DNA of 63,912 nucleotides from Campylobacteraceae bacterium (GTDB lineage Bacteria > Campylobacterota > Campylobacteria > Campylobacterales > Sulfurovaceae), in assembly GCA_027035765.1 (NCBI GenBank), contig JALVUD010000045.1:1-63912 (forward strand), given 5' to 3'. Under the pieces are notes generated by a model, which was not told where the DNA came from, ran no database searches, and worked only from the letters and a program-made list of their open reading frames with translations. Below are positions 255 through 14,110 of this stretch, piece after piece; the first letter of the stretch is position 1; every line of letters begins with the position of its first letter. The translations under genes and the position numbers were made by a program.

Positions 255-803
255 TCAATAGAGGCCGTACTTGCCGTCGGCACGCTTGTACATGACCCGC
301 AGGCGCCCTTCGTTGTCGTTGAAGACGATAAACTGGCGTTTGGGGTCGGAAGCCAGGATCTCACGGGCCTCCTCGAAATCGAGGGGTTTGTGGAGTTCCA
401 GATCCATGGGGACGATGTCATCATCAATGTCGTTGACGAAGTCGAGCTGCTCCTCGGCCTCTTCGATCTCGCTTTCAATCTCCCGCAGGCTCAGATTGCC
501 GCTTTTGTCCTTGATTCTGTCGGCGTAGCGGCGCAGGCTCTTTTTCATCCGTTCCAGGGCCAGGTCGATGGCGGCGTAGACATCTTTGTCGCGCTGGGTG
601 ATGACGACGGTGTTTTTATCTTTGAGATTGACGACGAACTCGACGCTGTAGCCTTTTTTTCCGTTTTTCGTATCTCCGGAGACGATACAGTGGACGGAGA
701 TAATCTCCAGATTGTACTTTTCCAGGCTATCGATAGCGCTCTCGATATAGTTTTTGATGGGCTCGGTCAGTTCGAAATGTCGACCCGCGATGTGTTTGTT
801 CAT
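255..803 (-). CDS. hpf: ribosome hibernation promoting factor, long form (HPF/RaiA)
   Basis: The 182-residue protein has an N-terminal HPF/RaiA domain (residues 1 to about 100, starting MNKHIAGRHFELTEPI, with the basic helix ALERMKKSLRRYADRIKDK) and a C-terminal dimerisation domain (about 125-182, motif HKPLDFEEAREILASDPKRQ). Long HPF dimerises through the C-terminal domain and joins two inactive 70S ribosomes into a 100S particle. The two-domain length is typical of bacteria that lack RMF. The gene stands alone, with a TATAAT box on its strand at 839-844 and the RBS AAAGGA before the ATG. Confidence 0.93.
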   Translation of the reverse strand: MNKHIAGRHFELTEPIKNYIESAIDSLEKYNLEIISVHCIVSGDTKNGKKGYSVEFVVNLKDKNTVVITQRDKDVYAAIDLALERMKKSLRRYADRIKDKSGNLSLREIESEIEEAEEQLDFVNDIDDDIVPMDLELHKPLDFEEAREILASDPKRQFIVFNDNEGRLRVMYKRADGKYGLY

Positions 804-906: not shown

Positions 907-1437
907 TTAAATTTTTTGCAGGGTACGACGATGATAGGTGATCCAGGGAGCGGTAGCCGGGTTGGTGGCATCCGGGTCTTTGTAACGTACAAAGACGTCG
1001 ATAATCACGGCAGCAACAGATCCATTGGCAGAGGCATTTCCATCAGTATAATCGGTGGTAATATTATTTGTGTTAACGATTCGTGTTCCACTGCAGGGAA
1101 GGCCGTTGCCGATATAATAGACACGGGTTTGAACATCGTATCCTCCCCCATTGGCCGTAGTGGCTCCGGCGGCAGCGGCGCTGCTTTCCGGATCGATGTT
1201 GTTGACGACACCGTTGACGTTTTCGATACAGTTGCCGCTGATGTTGCGGTCGTAGTTTATGATACTCATAATGGCAAGTTCCGTATAGCTGTGAGCCAGC
1301 AATGCGGCCTGCTCCTCCCGGTAGTTGACGACACTGGACTTGAGCATTCGTCCGGACAGATTGAGCACCAAAACGGAGAGAATAGCAACGATGACAACTG
1401 TGGCGATTGCCATGAGCATGGAAAATGCAGGTCTCAT
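907..1437 (-). CDS. prepilin-like protein, PilX/MshP type, last gene of the cluster
   Basis: The protein has 176 residues. A short leader (MRPA) is followed by FSMLMAIATVVIVAILSVLV, a hydrophobic N-terminal helix like that of minor pilins. The residue before the Phe is Ala instead of Gly and the glutamate at +5 is missing, so processing by prepilin peptidase is uncertain. PilX and MshP-like pilins often lack Glu5. The start overlaps the stop of the preceding gene (ATGA, 1434-1437), so translation is coupled. The rest is Asn/Gly-rich with two Cys and matches no family I recognise. Confidence 0.62.
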   Translation of the reverse strand: MRPAFSMLMAIATVVIVAILSVLVLNLSGRMLKSSVVNYREEQAALLAHSYTELAIMSIINYDRNISGNCIENVNGVVNNIDPESSAAAAGATTANGGGYDVQTRVYYIGNGLPCSGTRIVNTNNITTDYTDGNASANGSVAAVIIDVFVRYKDPDATNPATAPWITYHRRTLQKI

Positions 1438-2450
1438 CGGATTACCGCCTTTTCTTTACAGATTGTGACGTTGTAGTCACCGCCGTAACTCTCCTGTGCA
1501 CAGAGTTTGAATCGGAAAACGTTTCCGGCTTCGGCAAATTTGAAAACTGTTACGTTCCGGATCAGTACCGCCTTTTGTCCAGTGGAAAAATTGCAATGAT
1601 TGGTGCCGGCAGCACCAGCTGCGGGAGTTAAACGATCTCCTTCCCAGGGTTGATAATTGTAATAGAGAATCAGATCGTAATGACCATCAGTCCTCAGTTT
1701 CGGGCAGATGGAATAGGCGCTTCGGGCCAGTTTGTAGTGTTCGGCGATCACCTTGTGGAGTCGGGTACTCGCAGGTGGGCGAAATTTCAGCTGCGTTGTG
1801 CTGCCTGCAACTCTCTCGACGGTGGAAATACAACTGGTGTTGTTATCAATCATTCCCATACAGGTCAGTGCATCATAAGGGATGCGATTTCCGGTGATCG
1901 GATCGTTTTGATAGAAGTTGTTTCGGAAAAATATGGCGGGATGCCGCAAAGAGCCATTGTTGAGCCCCACACGACCACCCGATAGGTTGTTCATGATCGT
2001 ATGAGCGAAAGCGAGGTTGGATCCCGGTGTATTGATAATAGTCGCACTGGAGGAGTTGACGTCGCAGAAACCGCTCCACCCGGGTTTTCCGGCCGCACCG
2101 ATCCTTGCCGTGAAGCTCTCCTCATCATAGGCAATCCATTCCAACAGAGAGTGGTTGTTGTCGTTGGGGACGGTGGGATCCGAAACATGAAGGTTGTCGT
2201 TCAGATTGTTGGGATTGCGTGCAAGGGTGGTCCCTGGAATGCGGTTGGCCAGGAGGTTACTGATTTGCTGGGCGGCGATCTCTGTCTTGAGTACAGCTTT
2301 GTGGGTCGTATTCTGAAGCAGATAGTTCTTGTAGCTGTCGGCAATCATGGAGGAACCGATAGAGGCGACAATGCCCAAAATAACGATCACCATGATTACT
2401 TCAATCAGGGTAAGGGCTTTCCGCATCATGATAAACTCTTTCTTTCTCAT
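1434..2450 (-). CDS. type IV pilin-like protein with prepilin cleavage motif
   Basis: The protein carries a class III-like signal: KA followed by LTLIEVIMVIVILGIVASIG, with Glu at mature position 5. Two starts are possible. ATG at 2450 overlaps the upstream stop (TGATG), and ATG at 2429 has AGAAAGAG upstream as an RBS; I take 2450. The roughly 300-residue mature part has several Cys and resembles the large minor pilins PilW/MshO in size and layout. It lies between two other prepilin genes downstream of the giant exported protein, so it probably belongs to a pilus tip or pseudopilus complex. Confidence 0.7.
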   Translation of the reverse strand: MRKKEFIMMRKALTLIEVIMVIVILGIVASIGSSMIADSYKNYLLQNTTHKAVLKTEIAAQQISNLLANRIPGTTLARNPNNLNDNLHVSDPTVPNDNNHSLLEWIAYDEESFTARIGAAGKPGWSGFCDVNSSSATIINTPGSNLAFAHTIMNNLSGGRVGLNNGSLRHPAIFFRNNFYQNDPITGNRIPYDALTCMGMIDNNTSCISTVERVAGSTTQLKFRPPASTRLHKVIAEHYKLARSAYSICPKLRTDGHYDLILYYNYQPWEGDRLTPAAGAAGTNHCNFSTGQKAVLIRNVTVFKFAEAGNVFRFKLCAQESYGGDYNVTICKEKAVIR

Positions 2451-3214
2451 CAATAGGCCTTCCAGACAATCTCTTTTGGAGCACCGATATTGCACATGAA
2501 AGCTCCCATCGTAATATTTTTGTCCTGAAGTTCCTGGGCAGTATTGGCGGTCGTGAGTCTGACGCGGATCAGTTTGATATTACGTGTGGTTCCATTAGTG
2601 ACGCGCGTGTCGAATGGGTTGGAAAAAGTGGTTGTGGGTCCATACACCCCTTGAGCACCTGCAGCATTACGGGGATAGTCCTGGCCATACCAGACTCGCG
2701 TTTTCAGTGAAACATTGATATCGATATAGTTCCCCTGCCACGTCTGAATATTTTCACCGGCGTAGACGGTAACGTTCGTCTCCATATTGTTGAAGTCATC
2801 TACGTCGTTGTAACCGGTGGCATCACCGGCTCCATCGGGACCGAGTATCGCGGAGGCGTTGTAGTAGTTTCCATCCATCGCGCGACAGTAGCGTCCTTCG
2901 TTGTCGCTGACACCGGGAGGAAACGGGGTGCTGCAGGAAGGAATGTCGGGGCTATTGGTTCGCAACACGGGGCTGCCGATTGTACTGTTGGTATCCCGCT
3001 GGTCCCACTGCATTGTCAACAAAGTTGCCAGATGGGAAGAGATCATTGTTACGGCCTCCTGCTGGATAGCCACATAGGTACTTTTACTGCTGGTGGAAAT
3101 GAGCATCGGTACGCTCATGAGAGTAATGCCGATCACCGCAATGGCAAAGATCAGCTCGATCATGGCGATCCCTGGGCGTTTGGCGCGCATGTAAAACGTC
3201 TTGAACGGCTTCAC
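2450..3214 (-). CDS. type IV pilin-like protein (MshD/PilV-like)
   Basis: The protein has 254 residues. A 15-residue basic leader (MKPFKTFYMRAKRPG) is followed by IAMIELIFAIAVIGITLMS, a canonical Gly-1/Glu+5 prepilin peptidase site and N-terminal helix. The mature domain is rich in Asn, Thr and Tyr. Both ends are coupled by overlap: its ATG overlaps the stop of the giant gene (ATGA at 3214-3211), and its TGA overlaps the next start. It is the second gene of the four-gene operon. Confidence 0.75.
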   Translation of the reverse strand: MKPFKTFYMRAKRPGIAMIELIFAIAVIGITLMSVPMLISTSSKSTYVAIQQEAVTMISSHLATLLTMQWDQRDTNSTIGSPVLRTNSPDIPSCSTPFPPGVSDNEGRYCRAMDGNYYNASAILGPDGAGDATGYNDVDDFNNMETNVTVYAGENIQTWQGNYIDINVSLKTRVWYGQDYPRNAAGAQGVYGPTTTFSNPFDTRVTNGTTRNIKLIRVRLTTANTAQELQDKNITMGAFMCNIGAPKEIVWKAY

Positions 3215-6200
3215 CAGTTGATCCTTTGGTTCTGTATCGTACTGGGCTCAGTCTGGATGACGTTACCGGTTTTCCCTTCCCCTTTCCATTTCAGCCCCCA
3301 GTTCTGGAAGAAGATGGAGAAACTGGGTTCTCCATAGTGGGGATCGGCAGGGTTGACAATGGCAGGATTGTATTTGAGCCACTCCTGGGGAGTGATCCAT
3401 ATTTTTACCTCTTCAGGCCGCGGTGAGACCCCGATCGGAGGATAATGGATCGTTATGGCGGGTGAACTGCCGTTGTTATCCAGGGGTATATTGTTGAAGG
3501 GATTGACTGTGGCGCCGTTGGTGACGGCATTGTTGAAATTGTCGATGCTTAATTGGGTTACATTCCCGTCGGACTGGGTGTGGGCTGAGATACGATACCA
3601 TTTACCTGTACCGGAGATGTCATCCTCCTCTTTGGGTTGGACCAGACCGGGTAGAGTTGAACAGATGGGGTTGGTTGCATTGTCATCGCAATAGACGTCG
3701 ACGCGCAAGCGTGTCTGGTAGTTTTCATAGAATTCGTTGTGTCCATCGGCACCGATCAGCGGGGCTACTTTGGCAAAGTAGAAATATTTGTTTACTCCGA
3801 TAGTTTTGTTGCCGTCGGGCCGGTAATTGGAGATCTGGTTGGTATACGAGAGGTCGTTGACCCCATAGATATGAGCGATCGTAAAATTGATATCGGCGAC
3901 GTTGACAGGTGTGTCATAGGGTTTTTTCAGGTTGAGCAGCAGTGTCACTCCGGCGCTTCCGTTCTGGTCTCCACTTCGGAAATTCCATTTTGTCAGAGTC
4001 AGATTCTGGTCGGCGTCGATGACAGCTGAATAGTTCTCTGTGGCCGCTGAGCTTATATATTGATAGAGGGTTTGTTCCAACGGCACGGTGGCATTGTTTT
4101 CATCAAGAACCGGGTCGGGTATGCTGTTGGTGCCCATATGAAGATCGAGATCTCTGGCTTCGCATCCTGCGGTATAGTTGGTGAGTACCGTATCGTCAGC
4201 TCCCAGGGCTGTGATATTGCCTTCCACAGTGACAGCCATGGTTTTACTCCGGTTCAGGTCATTCATGTAGATCCAGGGGTTGGCGTCGTGCGGACGTGTA
4301 TGGAGATTCAGCCCGTTGAGTGAGAATTTGTAGGGCCGGAACGAAAGGTTGAGGTCGGTGTAGTTGCCGCTGCCCGAGTCGATCTTGGACCCGAAGGAGC
4401 ATCCTACTTTGCCGTTGCCATTTTCTGTATCGCTCGTACTACCCAGCACACAGTCGTTGCACAGCGCTGAATTGCTGCCGGCACAGGAACTGTTGAAAAG
4501 CGTTTTGTGAGGGTTATTATAGGCTCGGTCGACGAAAGTCCAGTTGCTGTCCCAGAGTTCGATCCTGTATTGCCCTGCATTTTCATTTTTGAGTTGGATA
4601 GATGCCAGGCCATTATTGAACGTAATTCCGAGGGAACGGTTGGAATCTTCTGCACAGCTTCCAGGGGTCGTGAACTCTTCCAAGGCGATACTGCCGTCTT
4701 TTTTGGCAGGGATGGCAGTCAGTGGATCTGCTGCTTTATAGACGTTGGTATAGTAACCGACTGAGAGCGTGTCGTCGTCTTTGACGGTCGTCAGATCCAT
4801 CGCATAAGGATATCCTGCAGACAGGGCACGATCGTTATTGGGATGGGTATCGTTTTTGGCAACGTTCACAGTAGAAAGGTTCGCGTCAGGGCCGCGGTCT
4901 CCAACACTCAGCCGGATCGCCTTGGGACGGATGGCGAAGTTGTCGCGGGCGCAGTAGGGTTGGGCGAAATAGTCCCGGAGACAGGCGTAGCAACCTACAG
5001 CGGAGGGATCCTTGGATGCCCGGGGGCTGGTATAGGAGTAGGGAGGCTGGCAGGCTGTAAGACAGAGGTTGGCGGTATCCTGGTTTTTGAAGTAGGTGTT
5101 GTAAACCTGTTCAAAATAGGCATTGTCGGTTTTGTCATGGAACTGTGTAGGATCTGAAACGATCGTTCCGTTTTCATCGATCAGGAGCCACATTCGGAAG
5201 GTGGCACTGCGAATGGCGTAGGTATTGGTCAGGTCATTCGCATCCATGATGTTTTTCCGATTTTGGCCGTTGGTGAAATAGACGAACGTTCCCGGTTTCA
5301 CGATGATCGTCGGGTCGGGGTTGCTACATTTGAAGTAAGATCCGTTGTCGTCAAAGGCGTCGATGTTGATCATCTCCACATTCACCGTGACCCCATCTGC
5401 GGGAGCAGGCAGAGTATATCGATCGTTATCCTGGGGATTTTTGATATAGGAGGCGATGGAATAGTTGAAGTCTTTTCCGGCGATGCGGGTAGGAAGCGAA
5501 TAGTGCTGCGTGGGATCGGAGGGTACTGAACCGGTAAAAGGCTTCTCGGCATTAAAACGGTACCAGACCGGATTGTAGGTGAGGTTCTGTGCACAGCGGT
5601 CGATCCGGAGAATCTGCCAGAAGTCCCCCGAACCGAAGTTCATCGTCGCATTCACCTCGATATTGAAATGGCCGGCGACACGGGATTGTCCCGGTTGGTT
5701 GTTGGCCGTCTTGTAGTCGTAGTAGAATTTGGTGAAGTAGCGCTCCTGGGGACTGAGGATTCCCCCTCTGTCTTTTGTCCGTCCCTTACCGATGGTGATG
5801 ACGGGGCGTTCCGGCAGTCGGCTCATATCCGCCAGAGGTGTGGAGAGCAGTGTGTTGGAGTTGGTGACGGAGTAATAGGCTTTGGTGCTGTTGGCGGTGA
5901 GGTTGCCGTCATCCTGTGCCAGCGTTACGGCGACAGAAGTGTTGCGGAGCTGCATGTCTCCTTCCATACTCCGAATGGCGACAGTGAAGCTGATCTCATC
6001 ATTGTTGGAGATGGTGCTATTGTATTCTCTCCCCTCTGAGGGGATGAGGAATTCATTGCGTTTTACAACATAGTCGTAGCAGACTTCAGGCTGATAGAGC
6101 TGGGCCGAGAATGCCATCATTCCGGGAGTGACATAGTCGTTGTTGGAATAGGTCTTGATAAAGACCCGATTGATATTGGGGTTGTCACTTCGATAATCTG

Positions 6201-9200
6201 TCATCAGCTGGGAGACGTCGAAGGTGTCCACATCGATACCCACATTGTTGACCGACTGGTCGTTGAACATATTTTGACCGTTTTTTACTATGTGGGGGCG
6301 TTCGATGCCGGTGAGTATCGCATCGAAGAGGTTGTCGCGGTTGGGACGATGGTCGCCGGCGGGAACCCCAGGCAGGTAGTCGTAGTCACCATCGTGATCA
6401 CTGATCTTCATCCAGTCAGCCGAGGAATGATTATATGGATTGCGCCCATACCTGAATTCTCCTTCGCCGGAAAAGACGGAAAGCGAAGCGTTAACTGGAC
6501 CATTGGTGGGGAGTTTGAATCCGGAGATCTCGATAGGGGTGTCGTGAGTGCCGATAGAAATAAAACCATTGTAGATAGAGATATTTCTGGCTTTGCCCTG
6601 TGTGTAATCTTCGGCATAGATAACTACCAGAGACCAGCCTCCGTAAGCACCCGGTGAATTTTCTCGCCCTTCCATGGTGAGGAGATTGGCAACAGTGAAG
6701 GTGTGATTGCCGTCATTCTGAATAGCACTTTGGACAATGGGTGTCACATCAGCATAGGCATCGTAAGTCTTACCATTGCTGCTTTGATAGACATGGAGCG
6801 TATTAGCATCGGCATCCTGGTAGGCTCCATTGTCCACTTTGAGGAGGATATGGCCGGCACCGATCCCTGCCATATCGATATCATCGATATCGGCATTACT
6901 ATTCTCTCCGATTTCGACAAAGTGGTAACCGCTGCCGTTACTGTTGGGTACAGCGTAATGGATGGGGTGATTTTTGTCGGTACTGAGACGTCCCTGCCAG
7001 AAGAGTCCGGCCCAAAGGACCCCTCCCAGCCTGTTGAAGGTTGAAGGGAAGCGGATGATGGAAGAGGTGGAGTTCCAGGTGTTGTTGTCGTCGTCAATAT
7101 CCAGATATTTGCTTACGTGCATGTTGCTGGTAATCAGCTCATAGTCCGGATTGTCTCCCTGACACGTTCCCCCGTAGCCGTCAGTTTTTCCGGTGAGACA
7201 AAGCATGGTGTTACCGGCGATTTTGTAATTTCCGACTATGTTGCGGGTCCGGATGGGGTTGATGAGGTAGAAAGGCAGGAAATTTCCGGAAGTCTGGACC
7301 GTTCCTGTGATCGTGATGACGACAGTGGCGCTGTCGGGAAGTCCTGTATCGCCCTGAATGGTGTAGGTGAAAGAGTCATCCCCGGCTTTGTTCGGATCCG
7401 GGGTATAGGTGAAACTGCCGTCCGCATTGAGGGTAAGTGTTCCCTTGGAAGGATCGGTATGGGAGATGATATGGATTCCGGATCCTGTATCGTTGTTCAT
7501 TACGTTACCGGAAATGGTATGTCCTGTCTCCACGCTGTAGGAGTCGTCGACCGCTTCGACCTGGTTGCTGTCCACAGCATTGACGGTAATAGACACATGG
7601 GCGGTATCGGTGGCATTGTTGATGTCGGTAACGGTATAGTCAAAGCCATCACTGCCCGCATAGCCCGGATCTGGAGTGTAGGAGAACCCGCCATCGGCAT
7701 TGATACTCAGGGTTCCATGAGCCGGATCGGTATGTGATGTGACCTGCAAAGTATTTCCGCTGTCGTTTTGGAGGAGACCGGGTGCCGAGACGCTTAAAGT
7801 GCTTCCCGCATTGACGGCATAACTGTCATCCAGTGCGTTGGGTCCGGTATTCTGATCAGTAAACAGATAATCGCTTGGGATGATGGTCTGGTTCGGGATA
7901 TTGTGATCGTTGCGCCAGGCCAGACGGGCGGTGGCATCTCCCGGCCCTTCGACCAGTTCCACGCGGATGGTGTGACAACCGGGAGTCAAATGCAAGGAAT
8001 TGGTATCCACGAAGTTGTTTTCACCTCCGGTCCAATTGGGGCCGTCGTAGATCTTGTTCCCATCGATGTAAAGGCGCAGAGAATCATCGTGTGCCACCGA
8101 AAAGATATAGTTGGCGTCTTCAGGGACGAGCAGATCTCCTGTCCAGACCACGCTGAAATCATCCTGCTGAACTCCCGCACCGGGACTGGAAGTACCCCAG
8201 GCGAAATCAAGGTTGGGATCGATTCGTTGCAAGGCAACAGGGGGAGAGAAATTGGTATTGTTGAAATATTTCCCATCGAGTCCGTGATTGCTTCCGCAGG
8301 TCAGAGCATTGACGGTGATTGTCACGGTCGCAGTAGCCGTCCCGCCGTGGCCGTCGCTGATGGTATAGTCGAAACTGTCGCTTCCGGTGTAGCCGAAGTC
8401 CGGCGTGTAGGTGATGGTGTTGTCTCCGTTGACGGTGACGCTTCCATGGGCGGGGCCGTTGGATGTACCGGTGACGGTGAGAGAATCTCCGTCGGGATCG
8501 CTGTCATTGTGCAGGACATCGATGGAGACGGCGGTACCCTGATTGGTCGAGGTGGCGTCATTCTGGGCGACAGGAAGGCCGTTGACGGTGATGGTCACGG
8601 TGGCAGTGTTGGAGACCGCACCGTGGCTGTCGATGGCCTCGTAAGTAAAGGTGTCTGTCCCGTAATAGCCTGCATCCGGTGTATAGGTAATGTCTGGCTC
8701 GGCTCCGCTGAGTGTTCCGTGTGAAGGGCCTGTAACAATGGGATAAGACTGGATTGAATCACCCACATCGGGATCTGAAGCATCGAGATGGATGGTCACC
8801 GGCGTATCGGTATTGGTTTGAGCAGAGACATCGTTGGCTGTAGGAGGAGTATTGGGAGGGACAATGGTGACCTGGGCTGATGCAAGATTATTCTCTACAT
8901 TGGTATCAAAAAGTTTTCGTGTCCAATTATTGCTATTATCCTTATTGATATATACGGTGTTTGTGAGGGTCCCCTGGACGGAATTGGCCACTGTTGCATT
9001 GAGGGTGATTGTCCTTTCAACTCCACTGTTTAGCCATTTACTACAATCAATCCCGTTCTCGTTTTTATTACAGCCTGAGACAGACAGGAAATGTAAACCG
9101 GTAGGTAAGGTATCGGTGATACGTACTTTCCCATTTTTGGGACCGTTGTTGCGTACCACGATTGTATAGGTTACGGTGTCACCGGGAGATTTGATAGATG

Positions 9201-9747
9201 AATCAGCGCTTTTGGTCACCTGAAAATCGACCAGTTTTGTCAAATGCGCCCGAACTTTGTATTCTGCATTGTCTTTGTTGGATCGTGAGACACGCAAATA
9301 GTAGGTATTTGAAGCTAATGTTAATGTCTTGTGTGATGTTTTATTGTCCACATCCCAACCTGCATTTGTGCTACAGTCTGAGTTATAGAGTTGAACCCTT
9401 GTTTTTTTATTGTTTCTTTTATTTCGGTCAAAACGAACTTCTGCGGGTTGGAGTAAAACGATTTTATACCAATCTTCATCATTATTGTCCGTAACTGTCC
9501 CATTAACCCATCCTGAGTCAGTTCCATTCATTGTGTCAAGCAACATGTTGGCTTGTGAACAGCTGTTGTTGGGCTCCGTTTCAGCAAATACGGGTGTGCT
9601 AAAGGCAAGCAAAGCGACAATAGAGGTTGTTTGGAATAGAAGAATATGATGACGATGGCCCACACTTCTTTTAAAAAGACAGCGAGTTAGAAAAGTCAGT
9701 GGAAAAAATAAAAAACCGATCAATAACCTTATATTAAATTGCTCCAT
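3211..9747 (-). CDS. giant exported multidomain protein (PPC-like, DUF11, Ig-like repeats, PA14), MshQ/PilY1-like role suspected
   Basis: The protein has 2178 residues. A long N-terminus ends in a signal peptide (about 34-55, cut after PVFA). It is followed by a pre-peptidase C-terminal-like domain starting ETEPNNSC (56-170), a DUF11 domain (about 173-295), two cadherin/Ig-like repeats with the TYTPDxGYxGxDxFxY pattern (300-388, 391-480), a PA14-like domain (about 484-632), two more Ig-like repeats (635-815) and a 1350-residue C-terminal half that I do not recognise. Several later segments are Cys-rich. No LPXTG, autotransporter barrel or C-terminal membrane anchor is seen. The three genes after it are prepilin-like and overlap-coupled, which suggests a pilus-associated adhesin like MshQ or PilY1. 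The RBS is GGAAGAG before the ATG. Confidence 0.7.
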   Translation of the reverse strand: MEQFNIRLLIGFLFFPLTFLTRCLFKRSVGHRHHILLFQTTSIVALLAFSTPVFAETEPNNSCSQANMLLDTMNGTDSGWVNGTVTDNNDEDWYKIVLLQPAEVRFDRNKRNNKKTRVQLYNSDCSTNAGWDVDNKTSHKTLTLASNTYYLRVSRSNKDNAEYKVRAHLTKLVDFQVTKSADSSIKSPGDTVTYTIVVRNNGPKNGKVRITDTLPTGLHFLSVSGCNKNENGIDCSKWLNSGVERTITLNATVANSVQGTLTNTVYINKDNSNNWTRKLFDTNVENNLASAQVTIVPPNTPPTANDVSAQTNTDTPVTIHLDASDPDVGDSIQSYPIVTGPSHGTLSGAEPDITYTPDAGYYGTDTFTYEAIDSHGAVSNTATVTITVNGLPVAQNDATSTNQGTAVSIDVLHNDSDPDGDSLTVTGTSNGPAHGSVTVNGDNTITYTPDFGYTGSDSFDYTISDGHGGTATATVTITVNALTCGSNHGLDGKYFNNTNFSPPVALQRIDPNLDFAWGTSSPGAGVQQDDFSVVWTGDLLVPEDANYIFSVAHDDSLRLYIDGNKIYDGPNWTGGENNFVDTNSLHLTPGCHTIRVELVEGPGDATARLAWRNDHNIPNQTIIPSDYLFTDQNTGPNALDDSYAVNAGSTLSVSAPGLLQNDSGNTLQVTSHTDPAHGTLSINADGGFSYTPDPGYAGSDGFDYTVTDINNATDTAHVSITVNAVDSNQVEAVDDSYSVETGHTISGNVMNNDTGSGIHIISHTDPSKGTLTLNADGSFTYTPDPNKAGDDSFTYTIQGDTGLPDSATVVITITGTVQTSGNFLPFYLINPIRTRNIVGNYKIAGNTMLCLTGKTDGYGGTCQGDNPDYELITSNMHVSKYLDIDDDNNTWNSTSSIIRFPSTFNRLGGVLWAGLFWQGRLSTDKNHPIHYAVPNSNGSGYHFVEIGENSNADIDDIDMAGIGAGHILLKVDNGAYQDADANTLHVYQSSNGKTYDAYADVTPIVQSAIQNDGNHTFTVANLLTMEGRENSPGAYGGWSLVVIYAEDYTQGKARNISIYNGFISIGTHDTPIEISGFKLPTNGPVNASLSVFSGEGEFRYGRNPYNHSSADWMKISDHDGDYDYLPGVPAGDHRPNRDNLFDAILTGIERPHIVKNGQNMFNDQSVNNVGIDVDTFDVSQLMTDYRSDNPNINRVFIKTYSNNDYVTPGMMAFSAQLYQPEVCYDYVVKRNEFLIPSEGREYNSTISNNDEISFTVAIRSMEGDMQLRNTSVAVTLAQDDGNLTANSTKAYYSVTNSNTLLSTPLADMSRLPERPVITIGKGRTKDRGGILSPQERYFTKFYYDYKTANNQPGQSRVAGHFNIEVNATMNFGSGDFWQILRIDRCAQNLTYNPVWYRFNAEKPFTGSVPSDPTQHYSLPTRIAGKDFNYSIASYIKNPQDNDRYTLPAPADGVTVNVEMINIDAFDDNGSYFKCSNPDPTIIVKPGTFVYFTNGQNRKNIMDANDLTNTYAIRSATFRMWLLIDENGTIVSDPTQFHDKTDNAYFEQVYNTYFKNQDTANLCLTACQPPYSYTSPRASKDPSAVGCYACLRDYFAQPYCARDNFAIRPKAIRLSVGDRGPDANLSTVNVAKNDTHPNNDRALSAGYPYAMDLTTVKDDDTLSVGYYTNVYKAADPLTAIPAKKDGSIALEEFTTPGSCAEDSNRSLGITFNNGLASIQLKNENAGQYRIELWDSNWTFVDRAYNNPHKTLFNSSCAGSNSALCNDCVLGSTSDTENGNGKVGCSFGSKIDSGSGNYTDLNLSFRPYKFSLNGLNLHTRPHDANPWIYMNDLNRSKTMAVTVEGNITALGADDTVLTNYTAGCEARDLDLHMGTNSIPDPVLDENNATVPLEQTLYQYISSAATENYSAVIDADQNLTLTKWNFRSGDQNGSAGVTLLLNLKKPYDTPVNVADINFTIAHIYGVNDLSYTNQISNYRPDGNKTIGVNKYFYFAKVAPLIGADGHNEFYENYQTRLRVDVYCDDNATNPICSTLPGLVQPKEEDDISGTGKWYRISAHTQSDGNVTQLSIDNFNNAVTNGATVNPFNNIPLDNNGSSPAITIHYPPIGVSPRPEEVKIWITPQEWLKYNPAIVNPADPHYGEPSFSIFFQNWGLKWKGEGKTGNVIQTEPSTIQNQRINW

Positions 9748-10069
9748 AATTCTCTTCCTTCTTCTTTATGATTTGATTGAGGAAGATTCACTCTTCTCAA
9801 TCTCTCCAGATTCGTATCGGTGACAGCAGCGTGTTTTTAACAATCTCCATCTCCTCGCTTCCCTCACCTCAGGCGAACCTAATACACATTTATCCATTAT
9901 CAAGATATCACAGGTAGGGTTAAGTTAATCTGAATTGGGACTTTCATATGAACAGCTGAAATGGCTTGTATGGAGGTGTTGAGCAATGCAGTGTGACTAT
10001 CTGCGGACAGGGGTCGAATATTCTGGGGCTGGTCAGGAGTGTGAAAATTAATGTGATACAATAGACCTC
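9748..10069. other. 322-bp divergent intergenic region between the giant-protein operon and a prepilin gene
   Basis: This AT-rich gap separates two divergent pilus-type transcription units and presumably holds both promoters. For the plus-strand gene, TACAAT at about 10055-10060 lies just before the ATG. For the minus-strand operon no confident -10/-35 pair stands out. No open frame with an RBS, hairpin or repeat array was found. Confidence 0.4.
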
Positions 10070-10756
10070 ATGGAAAAGAGTAGAGAAAAATCGAGAGCTT
10101 TTACAATGCTGGAGTTGATCTTTGTGATCATCGTAGTGGGAATCCTGGCCGCCCTGGCGATTCCCAGGCTCAAGAGAGATACACAGCAGGAGGCGGTGAC
10201 GAACATCCTGTCGGCGATCCGATTTGCCCGTTATATGGCGATGAACGACAATGTAATCCAGCCGACAAAAAACAAATGGCAGCGGGCTTTCTGGAGGATT
10301 GGTTTCGAGAAATGCAGTGACAACGGAATGTTTTACTATATCGCTTCCGACAAAGACCTGCAGGGGGATATCGATGCCAATGAGACGGTCAATGATCCGG
10401 CCAACGGGAAACCGATGATGGGGAACAACGCTCTGCCGTGTGCCACCCAGATACAAAACGGCAGTTCCCCCAATATCTTCATAACCCGTCACTATAAGAT
10501 CTCGGATCCCAACGGGATCACTTTCGCCGCAGATTGCGGTGGAGCGGCAGGAAAATATATCGGCTTCGACCATCTCGGACGTCCGTATCGTGGTTTCGCA
10601 GGAAATACCGGCAGTGCTACTCCCGACTACTCCACGCTCTTGACACAAGATTGTCATATAGTCATCCATTTCGATGACAACAGTATCTCCGATACCAATA
10701 TAACAATCGAAAAAGCCACCGGTCACGCCTACTGGACGGAACACCCTGAGGCATGA
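10070..10756 (+). CDS. prepilin-type N-terminal cleavage protein (GspH/MshC-like)
   Basis: The 228-residue protein has a short basic leader (MEKSREKSRA) followed by FTMLELIFVIIVVGILAALA, a strong prepilin signal with Glu at +5, although position -1 is Ala and not Gly. The mature part contains Cys pairs and an 'AIRFARYMAMNDN' helix typical of GspH/FimT-like minor pilins. It is transcribed divergently from the giant-protein operon and probably acts with it. The next gene, bamD, is on the same strand but 70 bp away and functionally unrelated. Confidence 0.72.
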   Translation: MEKSREKSRAFTMLELIFVIIVVGILAALAIPRLKRDTQQEAVTNILSAIRFARYMAMNDNVIQPTKNKWQRAFWRIGFEKCSDNGMFYYIASDKDLQGDIDANETVNDPANGKPMMGNNALPCATQIQNGSSPNIFITRHYKISDPNGITFAADCGGAAGKYIGFDHLGRPYRGFAGNTGSATPDYSTLLTQDCHIVIHFDDNSISDTNITIEKATGHAYWTEHPEA

Positions 10757-10826
10757 CTGGGGCAGGGACCTTTCATCCCAAATTCGCTATCATAAGCATT
10801 GAAATTGATGAAGAAGGATTGATGCC

Positions 10827-11480
10827 GTGAAACGATATCTGAAGATGAGTGTGGCAGTATTGTTGGCGGTGGGGCTCACCGGTTGTTTCGGGAGCAAAGA
10901 GGAGAAGAATTACGGCAAGACGGCGCAGGGATGGTATGATGCGATCCAGTACTCCATCGCTCATGATGAGCTGGAGAAGGCCGACAAGCAGTATCTCTCG
11001 CTGCGCAGCGAGCACATGGATTCGGCCCTGCTGCCCACGGCGATGCTGGCTTTGGCCCAGGCGCATATGGCGGATGAAGAGTATCTGCTGGCCAATTACT
11101 ATCTGGACGAGTTTCTCAAGAAGTACGCTTTCGGCGGCTGGGCCGAATATGCCCGCTTTCTCAAACTCAAAGCCTCTTTCCTGGGGATCCACGACATCAA
11201 CAAGGATCAGAAACTGGTCGCCGACACCCTGGCACGCTGTCAGAGCTTCTACGCTTCCCACCGCGGGAGCCGCTACGCTCCGCTGGTGCAGACGATGATT
11301 GTCCGGCTCCAGATGGCCCAGTATCTACTCGATGCCGATATCGCTCGCCTCTACGATCATATCGGCAAGAAAGAGGCCGCAAAAATCTATCGGGAAAAGA
11401 CCAAGAAATTTCTCTACAAGCCCGAACAGATCGAAGGTCCCGAAGGAGGGTTCCTCTCTTCGCTCAACCCTTTCGATTGA
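10827..11480 (+). CDS. bamD: outer membrane assembly lipoprotein BamD
   Basis: The protein has 217 residues and a lipoprotein signal with lipobox LTGC (Cys20). The rest is helical TPR repeats, including the 'ADKQYLSLRSEHMDS' and 'AQAHMADEEYLLANYYLDEFLKKY' regions typical of BamD/ComL. BamD is the essential lipoprotein of the BAM complex, which inserts beta-barrels (LptD, for example) into the outer membrane. The gene precedes lon, a neighbourhood seen in other Campylobacterota. The start ATG is preceded by AAGGA. Confidence 0.85.
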   Translation: MKRYLKMSVAVLLAVGLTGCFGSKEEKNYGKTAQGWYDAIQYSIAHDELEKADKQYLSLRSEHMDSALLPTAMLALAQAHMADEEYLLANYYLDEFLKKYAFGGWAEYARFLKLKASFLGIHDINKDQKLVADTLARCQSFYASHRGSRYAPLVQTMIVRLQMAQYLLDADIARLYDHIGKKEAAKIYREKTKKFLYKPEQIEGPEGGFLSSLNPFD

Positions 11481-11490
11481 TTTGAAAACT

Positions 11491-11576
11491 CCCGTCATTC
11501 CGGACTCGATCCGGAATCCAGGGCCTGGAACGCCAGCAAATCTGTGGATCCTGAATCGAGTTCAGGATGACGGAAC
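11491..11576. repeat. dispersed-type palindromic element between bamD and lon
   Basis: The arms CCGTCAT (11492-11498) and ATGACGG form an outer inverted repeat. Inside it are two hairpins, TTCCGGA/TCCGGAA with a CTCGA loop and CCTGAA/TTCAGG with a TCGAG loop; the loops are complementary to each other. The sequence resembles the CGTCATTCC...GGAATCC type of intergenic repeat found in many proteobacterial genomes. It may also end the bamD transcript, although no T-run follows. Confidence 0.6.
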
Positions 11577-11613
11577 GGCACAGGCACCGAGCTTTTTCTA
11601 TCAGTGTTTCCCC

Positions 11614-11642
11614 TTGACAAAATTCCCCTTTTGCAGTATATT
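11614..11642 (+). promoter_or_regulatory. sigma-70 promoter of lon
   Basis: TTGACA at 11614-11619 and TATATT at 11637-11642 are separated by exactly 17 bp. This is an unusually good -35 for this genome. Transcription would start near 11650, about 43 bases before the lon ATG. No heat-shock HrcA/CIRCE-like operator is visible. Confidence 0.75.
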
Positions 11643-11692
11643 CTTAAAGAAAATTTAAGACTTTATAAGCAAAGACTCAAAAGGATTTAACA

Positions 11693-14110
11693 ATGCAGCT
11701 CAGTGATTATGACAAATTTCCGACCGTCCTCCCCATCGTCGCGGAAGACGAACTCTTTTTCTACCCCTTTATGATCAGCCCCATCTTTCTCAGCTCCCAG
11801 CCCGACATCGATGCGGCCACGGCGGCTATGGAGAACAACTCCCTCCTCTTCGTCGCGACCACCCGGCCTGGGCATGAAGGGGAGCGCAGTATCGAGGCAA
11901 TCTACCCCGTGGGGGTCGTCGGCAGCATCATGCGCAAGGTCCACATGCCCGACGGGCGGGTCAAGATCCTCTTCCAGGGACTGGCAAGAGGACGTATCCT
12001 GGAGCCCGTGGAAGGCGAACCCCTCCAGGCGAAGATCGGTATCGTCGAGAACGACAGCTACAACCGTCTCAAAGTCGACGCCATGCTCAATATGCTCCGG
12101 GAGAAGATCCGGCAACTCAGCCAGCTCAACAGCTCCATCCCCGCCGACCTGGTCAAGACTATCGAAGAGAACGACGAGCCTCACCGCATCGCCGACCTGG
12201 TCTCCTCCATGCTCCCGCTCAAGAAGGAGAAGGCCTACGAGCTCTATACCATGGAGAATATAGAACAGCGGCTTCTGGGGATCATCGATATCATCGTCGG
12301 ACAGATCGAAGCCCTGAAGGTCCAGCGGGAGATCAGTTCCAAAGTGCACAACAAGATCGAGCAAACCAATAAGGAGTATTTCCTCAAAGAGCAGCTCAAA
12401 GAGATCCAGAAGGAGCTGGGGGTTGATACTCAGCGTGAGGAGGAGATCGCTGCATTCCGGGAGAAGCTCGAAGAGATCAAACCCTATCTCGAAGAGGACG
12501 CCTACAAGGAGATCAAGAAGCAGCTCGACCGCCTGGCGAGGATGCATCCCGACAGTGCCGACGCGGTGGTGCTGCAGAACTATCTGGAGTGGGTCTTCGA
12601 GATGCCCTTCGGGAAGTTCTCCAAAGGCCATCTGGACGTGAAGAAGGTCGCCGAAGAACTCGACAAGGACCACTACTCTCTCGAAAAGCCCAAAGAGCGG
12701 ATCGTGGAGTACTTCTCGGTCAAGGAGCTGGCCCAGCTGCGGGGCAAGAAGGAGACCGAGAGCAAAGGGGTGATCCTCTGCTTCGCCGGACCTCCGGGTG
12801 TGGGAAAGACCTCCCTGGCCAACTCCATCGCCAAAGCGCTGGACCGGCCGCTGGTGAGGATCGCCCTGGGAGGTCTGGAGGATGTGAACGAACTGCGGGG
12901 TCACCGCCGCACCTATGTCGGCGCCATGCCCGGACGGATCGTCCAGGGGCTCATCGAGGCCAAGACCATGGATCCGGTGATGGTTCTGGACGAGATCGAC
13001 AAGGTCGGGCGGACCCATCGGGGGGATCCCACCTCGGCGCTGCTGGAGATCCTGGACCCTGAGCAGAACACCCACTACCGGGACTACTATCTCAACTTCC
13101 ATATCGATCTGAGCAAAGTGGTCTTTATCGCTACGGCCAACGAGCTGGGCTACATCCCCGCTCCGCTGCGGGACCGGATGGAGATCATCATCGTTAACAG
13201 CTACACACCCGAAGAGAAGTTCGAGATCGCCCGGCGCTACCTGATCCCCCAGGAGCTCAAAAAGCACGCCCTGCGCCCCGATGAGTTCAGCATCTCCAAA
13301 AAGGCGCTGCGGCTGCTCATCGACGAATATACCCGGGAGCCGGGAGTCCGGAACCTGCGCCGCAAGATCGCGACCCTGATGCGCAAAGCCGCCCGAATGA
13401 TTCTGGAGGATCCCAAGATCGACCATATCCGCATCAATGCCAAGAACCTGCCAAAATTTGCCGGGAAGAAGGTCTTCGAATTCTCCGTCATCGACGAAGC
13501 CCCACAGGTCGGGGTGGTCAACGGACTCGCCTGGACGGCTGTCGGCGGGGATGTCCTGACCGTGGAGGCGATCAAGATCAAAGGCAAAGGGATGATGCAG
13601 CTCACCGGCAGCCTGGGCGACGTGATGAAGGAGTCGGCCCGGATCGCTCACAGTGTCGTGAAAATCCTTATCGACGAAGGCAAGGTGAAGGTCCCCCGTC
13701 AGATCATCCCCCAAACTGCCAAGGAGAAGGAGGAGGGGCGCTTGCCTGATGCCAGTGAGATCTACAAACGCTATGATCTGCACCTGCACGTTCCCGAAGG
13801 CGCCACGCCCAAAGACGGTCCCAGCGCCGGAATTACCATGGCCACCGCCATTGCCTCAATCTACAGTGAGCGCAAAGTGGACAACAAAGTGGCCATGACC
13901 GGCGAGCTGACCCTGACGGGCAAAGTCCTTCCTATTGGGGGGCTCAAAGAGAAGCTTATCGCCGCTTACAAAGCGGGCGTCACCAAAGCACTGATCCCGG
14001 AAAAGAACTATGAAAGGGATCTGGAAGATCTCCCCAAAGAGGTCCTGGACCATGTCAAAATTTTGCCGGTGAGTTCCATCGAAGAGGTGCTCAAAGAGGC
14101 GCTGCTCTGA
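11693..14110 (+). CDS. lon: ATP-dependent protease Lon
   Basis: The 805-residue protein has the full LonA layout: N-terminal substrate-binding domain (about 1-205), coiled coil, AAA+ module with Walker A GPPGVGKT at 366-373 and Walker B VMVLDEID, and a C-terminal peptidase domain. The catalytic dyad is Ser711 (in KDGPSAG) and Lys754 (in GGLKEK), 43 residues apart as in E. coli Lon. Lon degrades damaged and regulatory proteins in the cytoplasm. The RBS AAAGGA precedes the ATG, and the gene has its own promoter at 11614-11642. Confidence 0.97.
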   Translation: MQLSDYDKFPTVLPIVAEDELFFYPFMISPIFLSSQPDIDAATAAMENNSLLFVATTRPGHEGERSIEAIYPVGVVGSIMRKVHMPDGRVKILFQGLARGRILEPVEGEPLQAKIGIVENDSYNRLKVDAMLNMLREKIRQLSQLNSSIPADLVKTIEENDEPHRIADLVSSMLPLKKEKAYELYTMENIEQRLLGIIDIIVGQIEALKVQREISSKVHNKIEQTNKEYFLKEQLKEIQKELGVDTQREEEIAAFREKLEEIKPYLEEDAYKEIKKQLDRLARMHPDSADAVVLQNYLEWVFEMPFGKFSKGHLDVKKVAEELDKDHYSLEKPKERIVEYFSVKELAQLRGKKETESKGVILCFAGPPGVGKTSLANSIAKALDRPLVRIALGGLEDVNELRGHRRTYVGAMPGRIVQGLIEAKTMDPVMVLDEIDKVGRTHRGDPTSALLEILDPEQNTHYRDYYLNFHIDLSKVVFIATANELGYIPAPLRDRMEIIIVNSYTPEEKFEIARRYLIPQELKKHALRPDEFSISKKALRLLIDEYTREPGVRNLRRKIATLMRKAARMILEDPKIDHIRINAKNLPKFAGKKVFEFSVIDEAPQVGVVNGLAWTAVGGDVLTVEAIKIKGKGMMQLTGSLGDVMKESARIAHSVVKILIDEGKVKVPRQIIPQTAKEKEEGRLPDASEIYKRYDLHLHVPEGATPKDGPSAGITMATAIASIYSERKVDNKVAMTGELTLTGKVLPIGGLKEKLIAAYKAGVTKALIPEKNYERDLEDLPKEVLDHVKILPVSSIEEVLKEALL

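Follow-up and report, generated by a model that had tools for sequence, protein, structure and literature searches.

An MshQ-like candidate tip protein with a divergent DUF6701 end, encoded beside minor prepilins in a Campylobacterota genome

The tip proteins of type IV pilus systems decide what bacteria attach to, and outside PilY1 they are poorly described. Among the closest described systems is the MSHA pilus of Vibrio cholerae, for which the accessible part of a published gene table lists MshI (PilN), MshJ (PilO), MshL (secretin), MshM (ExeA) and MshN (TPR), followed further on by the platform protein and by MshA, C, D, O, P and Q (PMC4624765). Excerpts of two other papers concern MshQ itself: deletion of mshQ in V. 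cholerae left fewer surface pili, the protein being termed a putative adhesin (PMC7096442), and a swap of mshQ between strains of V. fischeri changed squid colonisation (PMC4094467). For the PilY1 class, the available portions of the literature report that in Myxococcus PilY1, together with the minor pilins, primes the pilus and makes up its tip (PMC7541494), and that the C-terminus of PilY1 is kept where its N-terminus varies (PMC13190605). Among 5.39 million open-access papers none names DUF6701, and none brings together Campylobacterota, type IV pilus and minor pilin as terms.

The locus described here lies in a window of 63,912 nucleotides (the whole stretch of DNA that was analysed) and, like the MshQ loci of Vibrio cholerae and Shewanella, encodes a large protein, a putative adhesin, together with the minor pilins D, O and P of an MSHA-type machine. 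In contrast to MshQ, whose gene is last in its operon, the large gene here is first, and its product has 2178 residues that include DUF11, Ig-like, PA14 and an uncharted conserved region (region A), with a DUF6701 end too divergent for Pfam. The label MshQ-like is an analogy drawn from gene context and from the DUF6701-type C-terminus that MshQ presumably bears; membership in MshQ itself is not claimed, and plasmids searched for a named MshQ, with a DUF6701 protein as query, gave no match. The resemblance extends to PilY1/PilC proteins encoded with PilV-PilW-PilX-FimT, which, in the part of the source available, are likewise large, adjacent to minor pilins, conserved at the C-terminus and variable at the N-terminus (PMC13190605); unlike them, the 2178-residue protein has no beta-propeller match and ends in a different domain. 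For the Cts transformation system of Campylobacter jejuni, the portion of the literature at hand describes no such tip protein.

The locus and its large gene

The large gene is an ATG-started open reading frame that reads from 9747 to 3211 on the minus strand, and the sequence-only reading of it as an exported protein heading a tight prepilin operon proved real in its frame, its leader and the three collinear genes downstream. The genes of the locus and its flanks are:

255 to 803, minus strand: S30EA/ribosome hibernation protein (Pfam PF02482), a flanking syntenic marker, the same neighbour in relatives
907 to 1437, minus strand: third prepilin-like gene, in the MshP/PilX position, without Glu5 (AFSMLMAIATVV); 24-row alignment
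1434 to 2450, minus strand: second minor prepilin, in the MshO/PilW position (ALTLIEVIMVI), ATG at 2450; N_methyl E 6.4e-4
2450 to 3214, minus strand: PilV/MshD-like minor prepilin (GIAMIELIFAI); TIGR02523 PilV E 2.5e-4, below cut-off; conserved in a 23-row alignment
3211 to 9747, minus strand: large exported protein, candidate MshQ-like tip protein; open reading frame and C-half homologues
10070 to 10756, plus strand: fourth prepilin-like gene (AFTMLELIFVI), FimT/GspH-like, divergent from the large gene; N_methyl E 2.2e-4
11693 to 14110, plus strand: open reading frame for a putative Lon-like protease; flanking syntenic marker, the same neighbour in relatives

From the large gene through the third prepilin-like gene the frames overlap by 4, 1 and 4 bases, so that the 4-base overlaps first reported for all three junctions hold for the outer two, the middle junction being a 1-base TGATG. 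The stoichiometric production that had been read from these overlaps is not supported, is unlikely for a tip protein and was set aside. The first two downstream genes have prepilin N-termini, and the third keeps the hydrophobic start but has no Glu5; N_methyl matches were obtained for the second in 24 of 25 cassette members, and PilX_N matches for the third in only one of 24. The names MshD, MshO and MshP are applied by position and N-terminus, with no family model behind them. Scans of the sequence for promoters (12 found, 11.8 by chance) and terminators (13 found, 9.7 by chance, sd 2.9) returned a chance number and a number close to chance, respectively.

The protein begins with a hydrophobic, signal-peptide-like stretch that ends in AFSTPVFA, before ETEPNN, and can be divided as follows:

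9583 to 9747, minus strand: leader and signal-peptide-like region, residues 1-55; translation read directly
9232 to 9582, minus strand: PPC-like region (weak), residues 56-172; PDB phmmer 3jqw
8872 to 9231, minus strand: DUF11, residues 173-292; Pfam PF01345 E 1.9e-16
8308 to 8862, minus strand: two Ig/cadherin-like repeats (Big_9), residues ~296-480; Pfam PF17963
7900 to 8295, minus strand: PA14, residues 485-616; Pfam PF07691 E 8.9e-27, PDB 6qdi E 5.2e-30
7306 to 7857, minus strand: two further Ig/cadherin-like repeats, residues ~631-814; Pfam PF17963
5878 to 7305, minus strand: region A, a conserved module (WAGLFWQG ... GGWSLVVIY ... RNISIYNGF), residues 815-1290; 27-row alignment
5551 to 5877, minus strand: linker, residues 1291-1399; alignment
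3214 to 5550, minus strand: predicted divergent DUF6701 module, residues 1400-2178; profile-profile Prob 100, cysteine columns
4924 to 4947, minus strand: RDNFAIRP motif (residue 1601), also present in DUF6701 proteins that PF20419 finds; motif comparison

Within the domain series proposed earlier, Pfam bears out DUF11, PA14 and the four Ig-like repeats (four stretches of Big_9/cadherin-like PF17963, E 2.9e-69), and the PPC-like call is left with a weak match as its sole support, to the collagenase ColH chain 3jqw (PDB phmmer, E 0.043, residues 51-163). In a PDB search the closest solved relatives of the PA14 domain were a PA14 protein and RsgI3, and the domain would be compatible with carbohydrate or glycan binding, a putative function. 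Compared with the closest relative (L049), the C-terminal half is 94% identical, residues 189-814 are 79% identical and residues 1-188 cannot be aligned.

The conserved C-terminal half

The Pfam scan of the 2178-residue protein found no domain past about residue 814. Residues 815-2178, used as a query, gave matches in 97 of the 175 genomes of the same family, which places the protein far beyond chance, and the furthest-reaching part among relatives, C-terminal in every case, was the final ~580 residues. The Pfam model for DUF6701 (PF20419) matched none of 35 C-modules searched singly (E <= 1) and nothing in the protein's own genome; across 298 genomes of the phylum it matched in 18, in 16 of them above the cut-off, and most of the proteins so found have in common with the 2178-residue protein a D.F[AGS][IVL]RP motif.

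When 32 C-modules were compared by hhalign with nine DUF6701 frames that bear the motif, the result was Prob 100 and E 7e-54 over 501 columns. Because this first comparison was confined to motif-carrying frames (9 of 13 rows), a possible bias, it was redone with all 12 unselected frames (Prob 100, E 8e-66; E 2e-60 when the frame from genome G065 is left out) and with the shared RDNFAIRP motif masked in both profiles, where the homology survives (E 4e-52). Scores in the controls were 0.1 for a reversed profile, 0.1 for region A against DUF6701 and at most 0.5 for 18 other large open reading frames from five loci. The C-module profile matches 130 of the 298 phylum genomes, including, when the lists were compared by hand, all 18 that are positive for PF20419. 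A single 1864-residue frame of G065 carries both region A (homology to residues 879-1099) and DUF6701 above the Pfam cut-off, and its locus, L069, is likewise a prepilin cassette. Cysteine occupies at least 60% of the 35 C-module rows in 14 columns; the 2178-residue protein has another residue in two of these, and in the remaining 12 cysteine is present in at least 89% of the rows.

From these profile comparisons we conclude that residues ~1400-2178 represent a divergent DUF6701 module. The sequence-only reading had found the C-terminal half impossible to assign, which no longer applies to this stretch, and DUF6701, which it had named as a domain worth seeking, emerged through profile-profile comparison with the Campylobacterota proteins that PF20419 detects. 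The DUF6701 proteins of other Campylobacterota families resemble the module described here in their RDNFxIRP-type motif and C-terminal position, often carry region A within the one frame and are often followed by a PilV-like prepilin; they differ in being scored by PF20419 itself, most above the cut-off, and in being mostly shorter. PDB profile searches with the C-module and with region A gave no match, and AlphaFold models built from three-row alignments (L049, L050 and the 2178-residue protein) reached a mean pLDDT of 26.2 for residues 1400-2178 and 29.0 for residues 815-1400, values most likely explained by the shallow alignment.

The position beside minor pilins is also that of a PilY1-type tip protein, and the C-terminal half could on this account hide an unrecognised propeller. 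The earlier reading had suggested looking for a PilY1 propeller, of which Pfam finds no trace in the 2178-residue protein (no match to PF05567); the homology that was found is to DUF6701, and membership in PilY1 was rejected, leaving this explanation very improbable. A search for PF05567 across the phylum matched in none of 298 genomes, a count obtained without a positive control.

Region A has a mean column identity of 38% over its 27 alignment rows and no convincing Pfam or PDB family. It is present in 92 of the 298 phylum genomes, often sharing its frame with the C-module; among the matches listed, it also occurs in frames without a C-module (G232, C13 and C14, and G375:C57), and may thus be an independent domain. 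Both region A and the C-module are found in two even larger relatives, frames of 4079 and 4065 residues (G246:C1 and G233:C1).

The cassette among relatives

Of the 22 loci fetched for homology to the C-terminal half, 21 have a prepilin gene directly after the large gene, at a distance of -7 to +14 bases, L067 being the exception. Among the 15 loci fetched for DUF6701 the same arrangement was detected in seven by script and in an eighth (L095) by eye; in L089, L090, L092, L094, L096, L097 and L100 no prepilin was detected directly behind the large gene. These counts leave out five loci picked through the prepilin search (L083-L086 and L102). Four of the latter, L083-L086, come from members of the genus without a C-half match, and all four have a motif-bearing large gene before a prepilin. 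Seven or more relatives (L051, L052, L060, L061, L066, L069 and L084 among them) have a counterpart of the fourth prepilin-like gene within the cassette operon, where it comes last.

Over 19 motif-bearing, prepilin-adjacent frames (L049-L070) the distance from the motif to the stop ranges from 478 to 595 residues, and the part before the motif from 378 to 2245. The lengths behind and before the motif and the gradient of identity towards L049 together point to a conserved dock and a changing head.

It might be argued that the protein is a free surface or secreted adhesin, merely co-transcribed with the pilins and no part of the pilus, although the pilus, or else a type II-like machine, might export it. 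Its Cadherin/Ig-rich make-up is common among secreted adhesins, and some DUF6701 proteins (L089, L090 and L100) have no prepilin directly behind them. Against such an arrangement stand the minor prepilin that adjoins the large gene in 21 of 22 loci and a C-module that is both the furthest-reaching part and invariably C-terminal, and we regard it as improbable.

Two minor observations concern the loci themselves. The exception L067 encodes, at 4165-12303, a C-module relative of 2712 residues with no detected prepilin neighbour. Two or three large DUF6701-motif genes lie in tandem or close together in L090 (G213:C2, 5561-15623), L068 (4921-17713), L101 (6583-15031) and L057 (2294-13310), which suggests duplication of the tip protein.

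The pilus machine and the proposed tip adhesin

The sequence-only reading depended on a host that has a prepilin peptidase and the machinery of type IV pilus assembly, and the genome holds a single, complete machine of this type, with a prepilin peptidase (Peptidase_A24 and A24_N matches), one secretin, one PilB/GspE-type ATPase of the PilB/MshE kind and two PilT-family ATPases (TIGR01420, 445.5 and 465.2 bits, cut-off 319.1). The extension ATPase has an MshEN domain (PF05157, E 3.6e-16), and the best model for the secretin is MshL (TIGR02519, 247.7 bits, below the cut-off of 250.2). Beside the secretin (L043) the order is an unassigned 518-residue gene, PilO, a 134-residue gene, the secretin, an AAA ATPase, a TPR-like protein (ANAPC3 match), the MshEN ATPase and GspF; the AAA ATPase is in our reading ExeA-like, from its AAA_22 and TIGR03015 matches. 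This succession of PilO-like protein, K, secretin, ExeA-like ATPase, TPR protein, ATPase and GspF-like protein matches the V. cholerae MSHA table as far as it is available (PMC4624765). The best NCBIfam models for the ATPase and the inner-membrane platform are GspE and GspF, both below cut-off, which counts against a pure MSHA label.

The MshL model matches in 271 of the 298 phylum genomes (E <= 1e-3), and in 219 a secretin of this type scores above the NCBIfam cut-off, so that MSHA-like machines look common in Campylobacterota. Among the listed genomes without an MshL match, 17 of 20 belong to one genus. An MshL match accompanies the C-module in 129 of its 130 genomes, G313 being the exception, versus 271 of 298 overall, on lists compared by hand; the co-occurrence points in the right direction and carries little weight, given the high background and the concentration of the listed MshL-less genomes in one genus.

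That MshL matches occur in 271 genomes and the C-module in 130 implies a broader role for the machine, and this raises the scenario that pilus and large protein serve mainly natural transformation, as a Cts-like competence pilus or pseudopilus in which the protein at the tip would bind DNA or have a priming role. The gene order of the machine resembles that of cts in Campylobacter jejuni. The two PilT-family ATPases and the adhesin-like N-terminus (DUF11, Ig-like, PA14) fit surface attachment better, and transformation as the main role seems unlikely, though the two functions are not mutually exclusive.

We return to the MshQ-like tip protein, and hold it to be probable that the 2178-residue protein serves in this capacity on a retractable type IVa pilus of the MSHA kind. 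The divergent DUF6701 end of this protein and the position of its gene beside those for pilus minor subunits make a tip adhesin of a retractable pilus like that of Vibrio MSHA the most likely reading, and the same divergent end, with the MSHA-like content and order of the machine, renders the likeness to MshO-MshP-MshQ cassettes stronger than first claimed. By analogy with the PilY1 and MshQ literature, from which docking, priming, tip location and adhesion are all extrapolated, the DUF6701 module (~1400-2178) would most likely dock on the minor-pilin complex encoded behind the large gene; the complex would first start off assembly of the pilus at the machine (priming) and afterwards be carried on its tip, with region A and the DUF11, Ig-like and PA14 modules projecting outwards as the binding part. 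Exchange of these outward modules between lineages would alter what the pilus sticks to.

Most likely this is a known kind of pilus system whose tip protein has a front part that is exchangeable and unusually large. A bolder proposal, which we advance tentatively and rate at somewhat below even, is that retractable pili across the Campylobacterota use DUF6701 rather than a PilY1 propeller as a universal minor-pilin dock, joined to region A and to a giant adhesive head that can be swapped. If this is true, specificity of attachment, for instance to sulfur, to minerals, to animal surfaces or to other cells, would evolve by replacement of the head on an unchanged dock. The combination of divergent DUF6701, region A and minor-pilin cassette over many Campylobacterota families offers a testable candidate for the attachment of abundant sulfur-cycling bacteria; in Sulfurovum indicum, according to the available part of one report, a gene annotated MshL rises in growth on elemental sulfur (PMC10045233).

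Apart from the machine and the cassette, three further prepilins were observed, one at G000:C33:25453-25527 and two in tandem on G000:C43:17688-18179, and these stand-alone genes are candidates for the major pilin.
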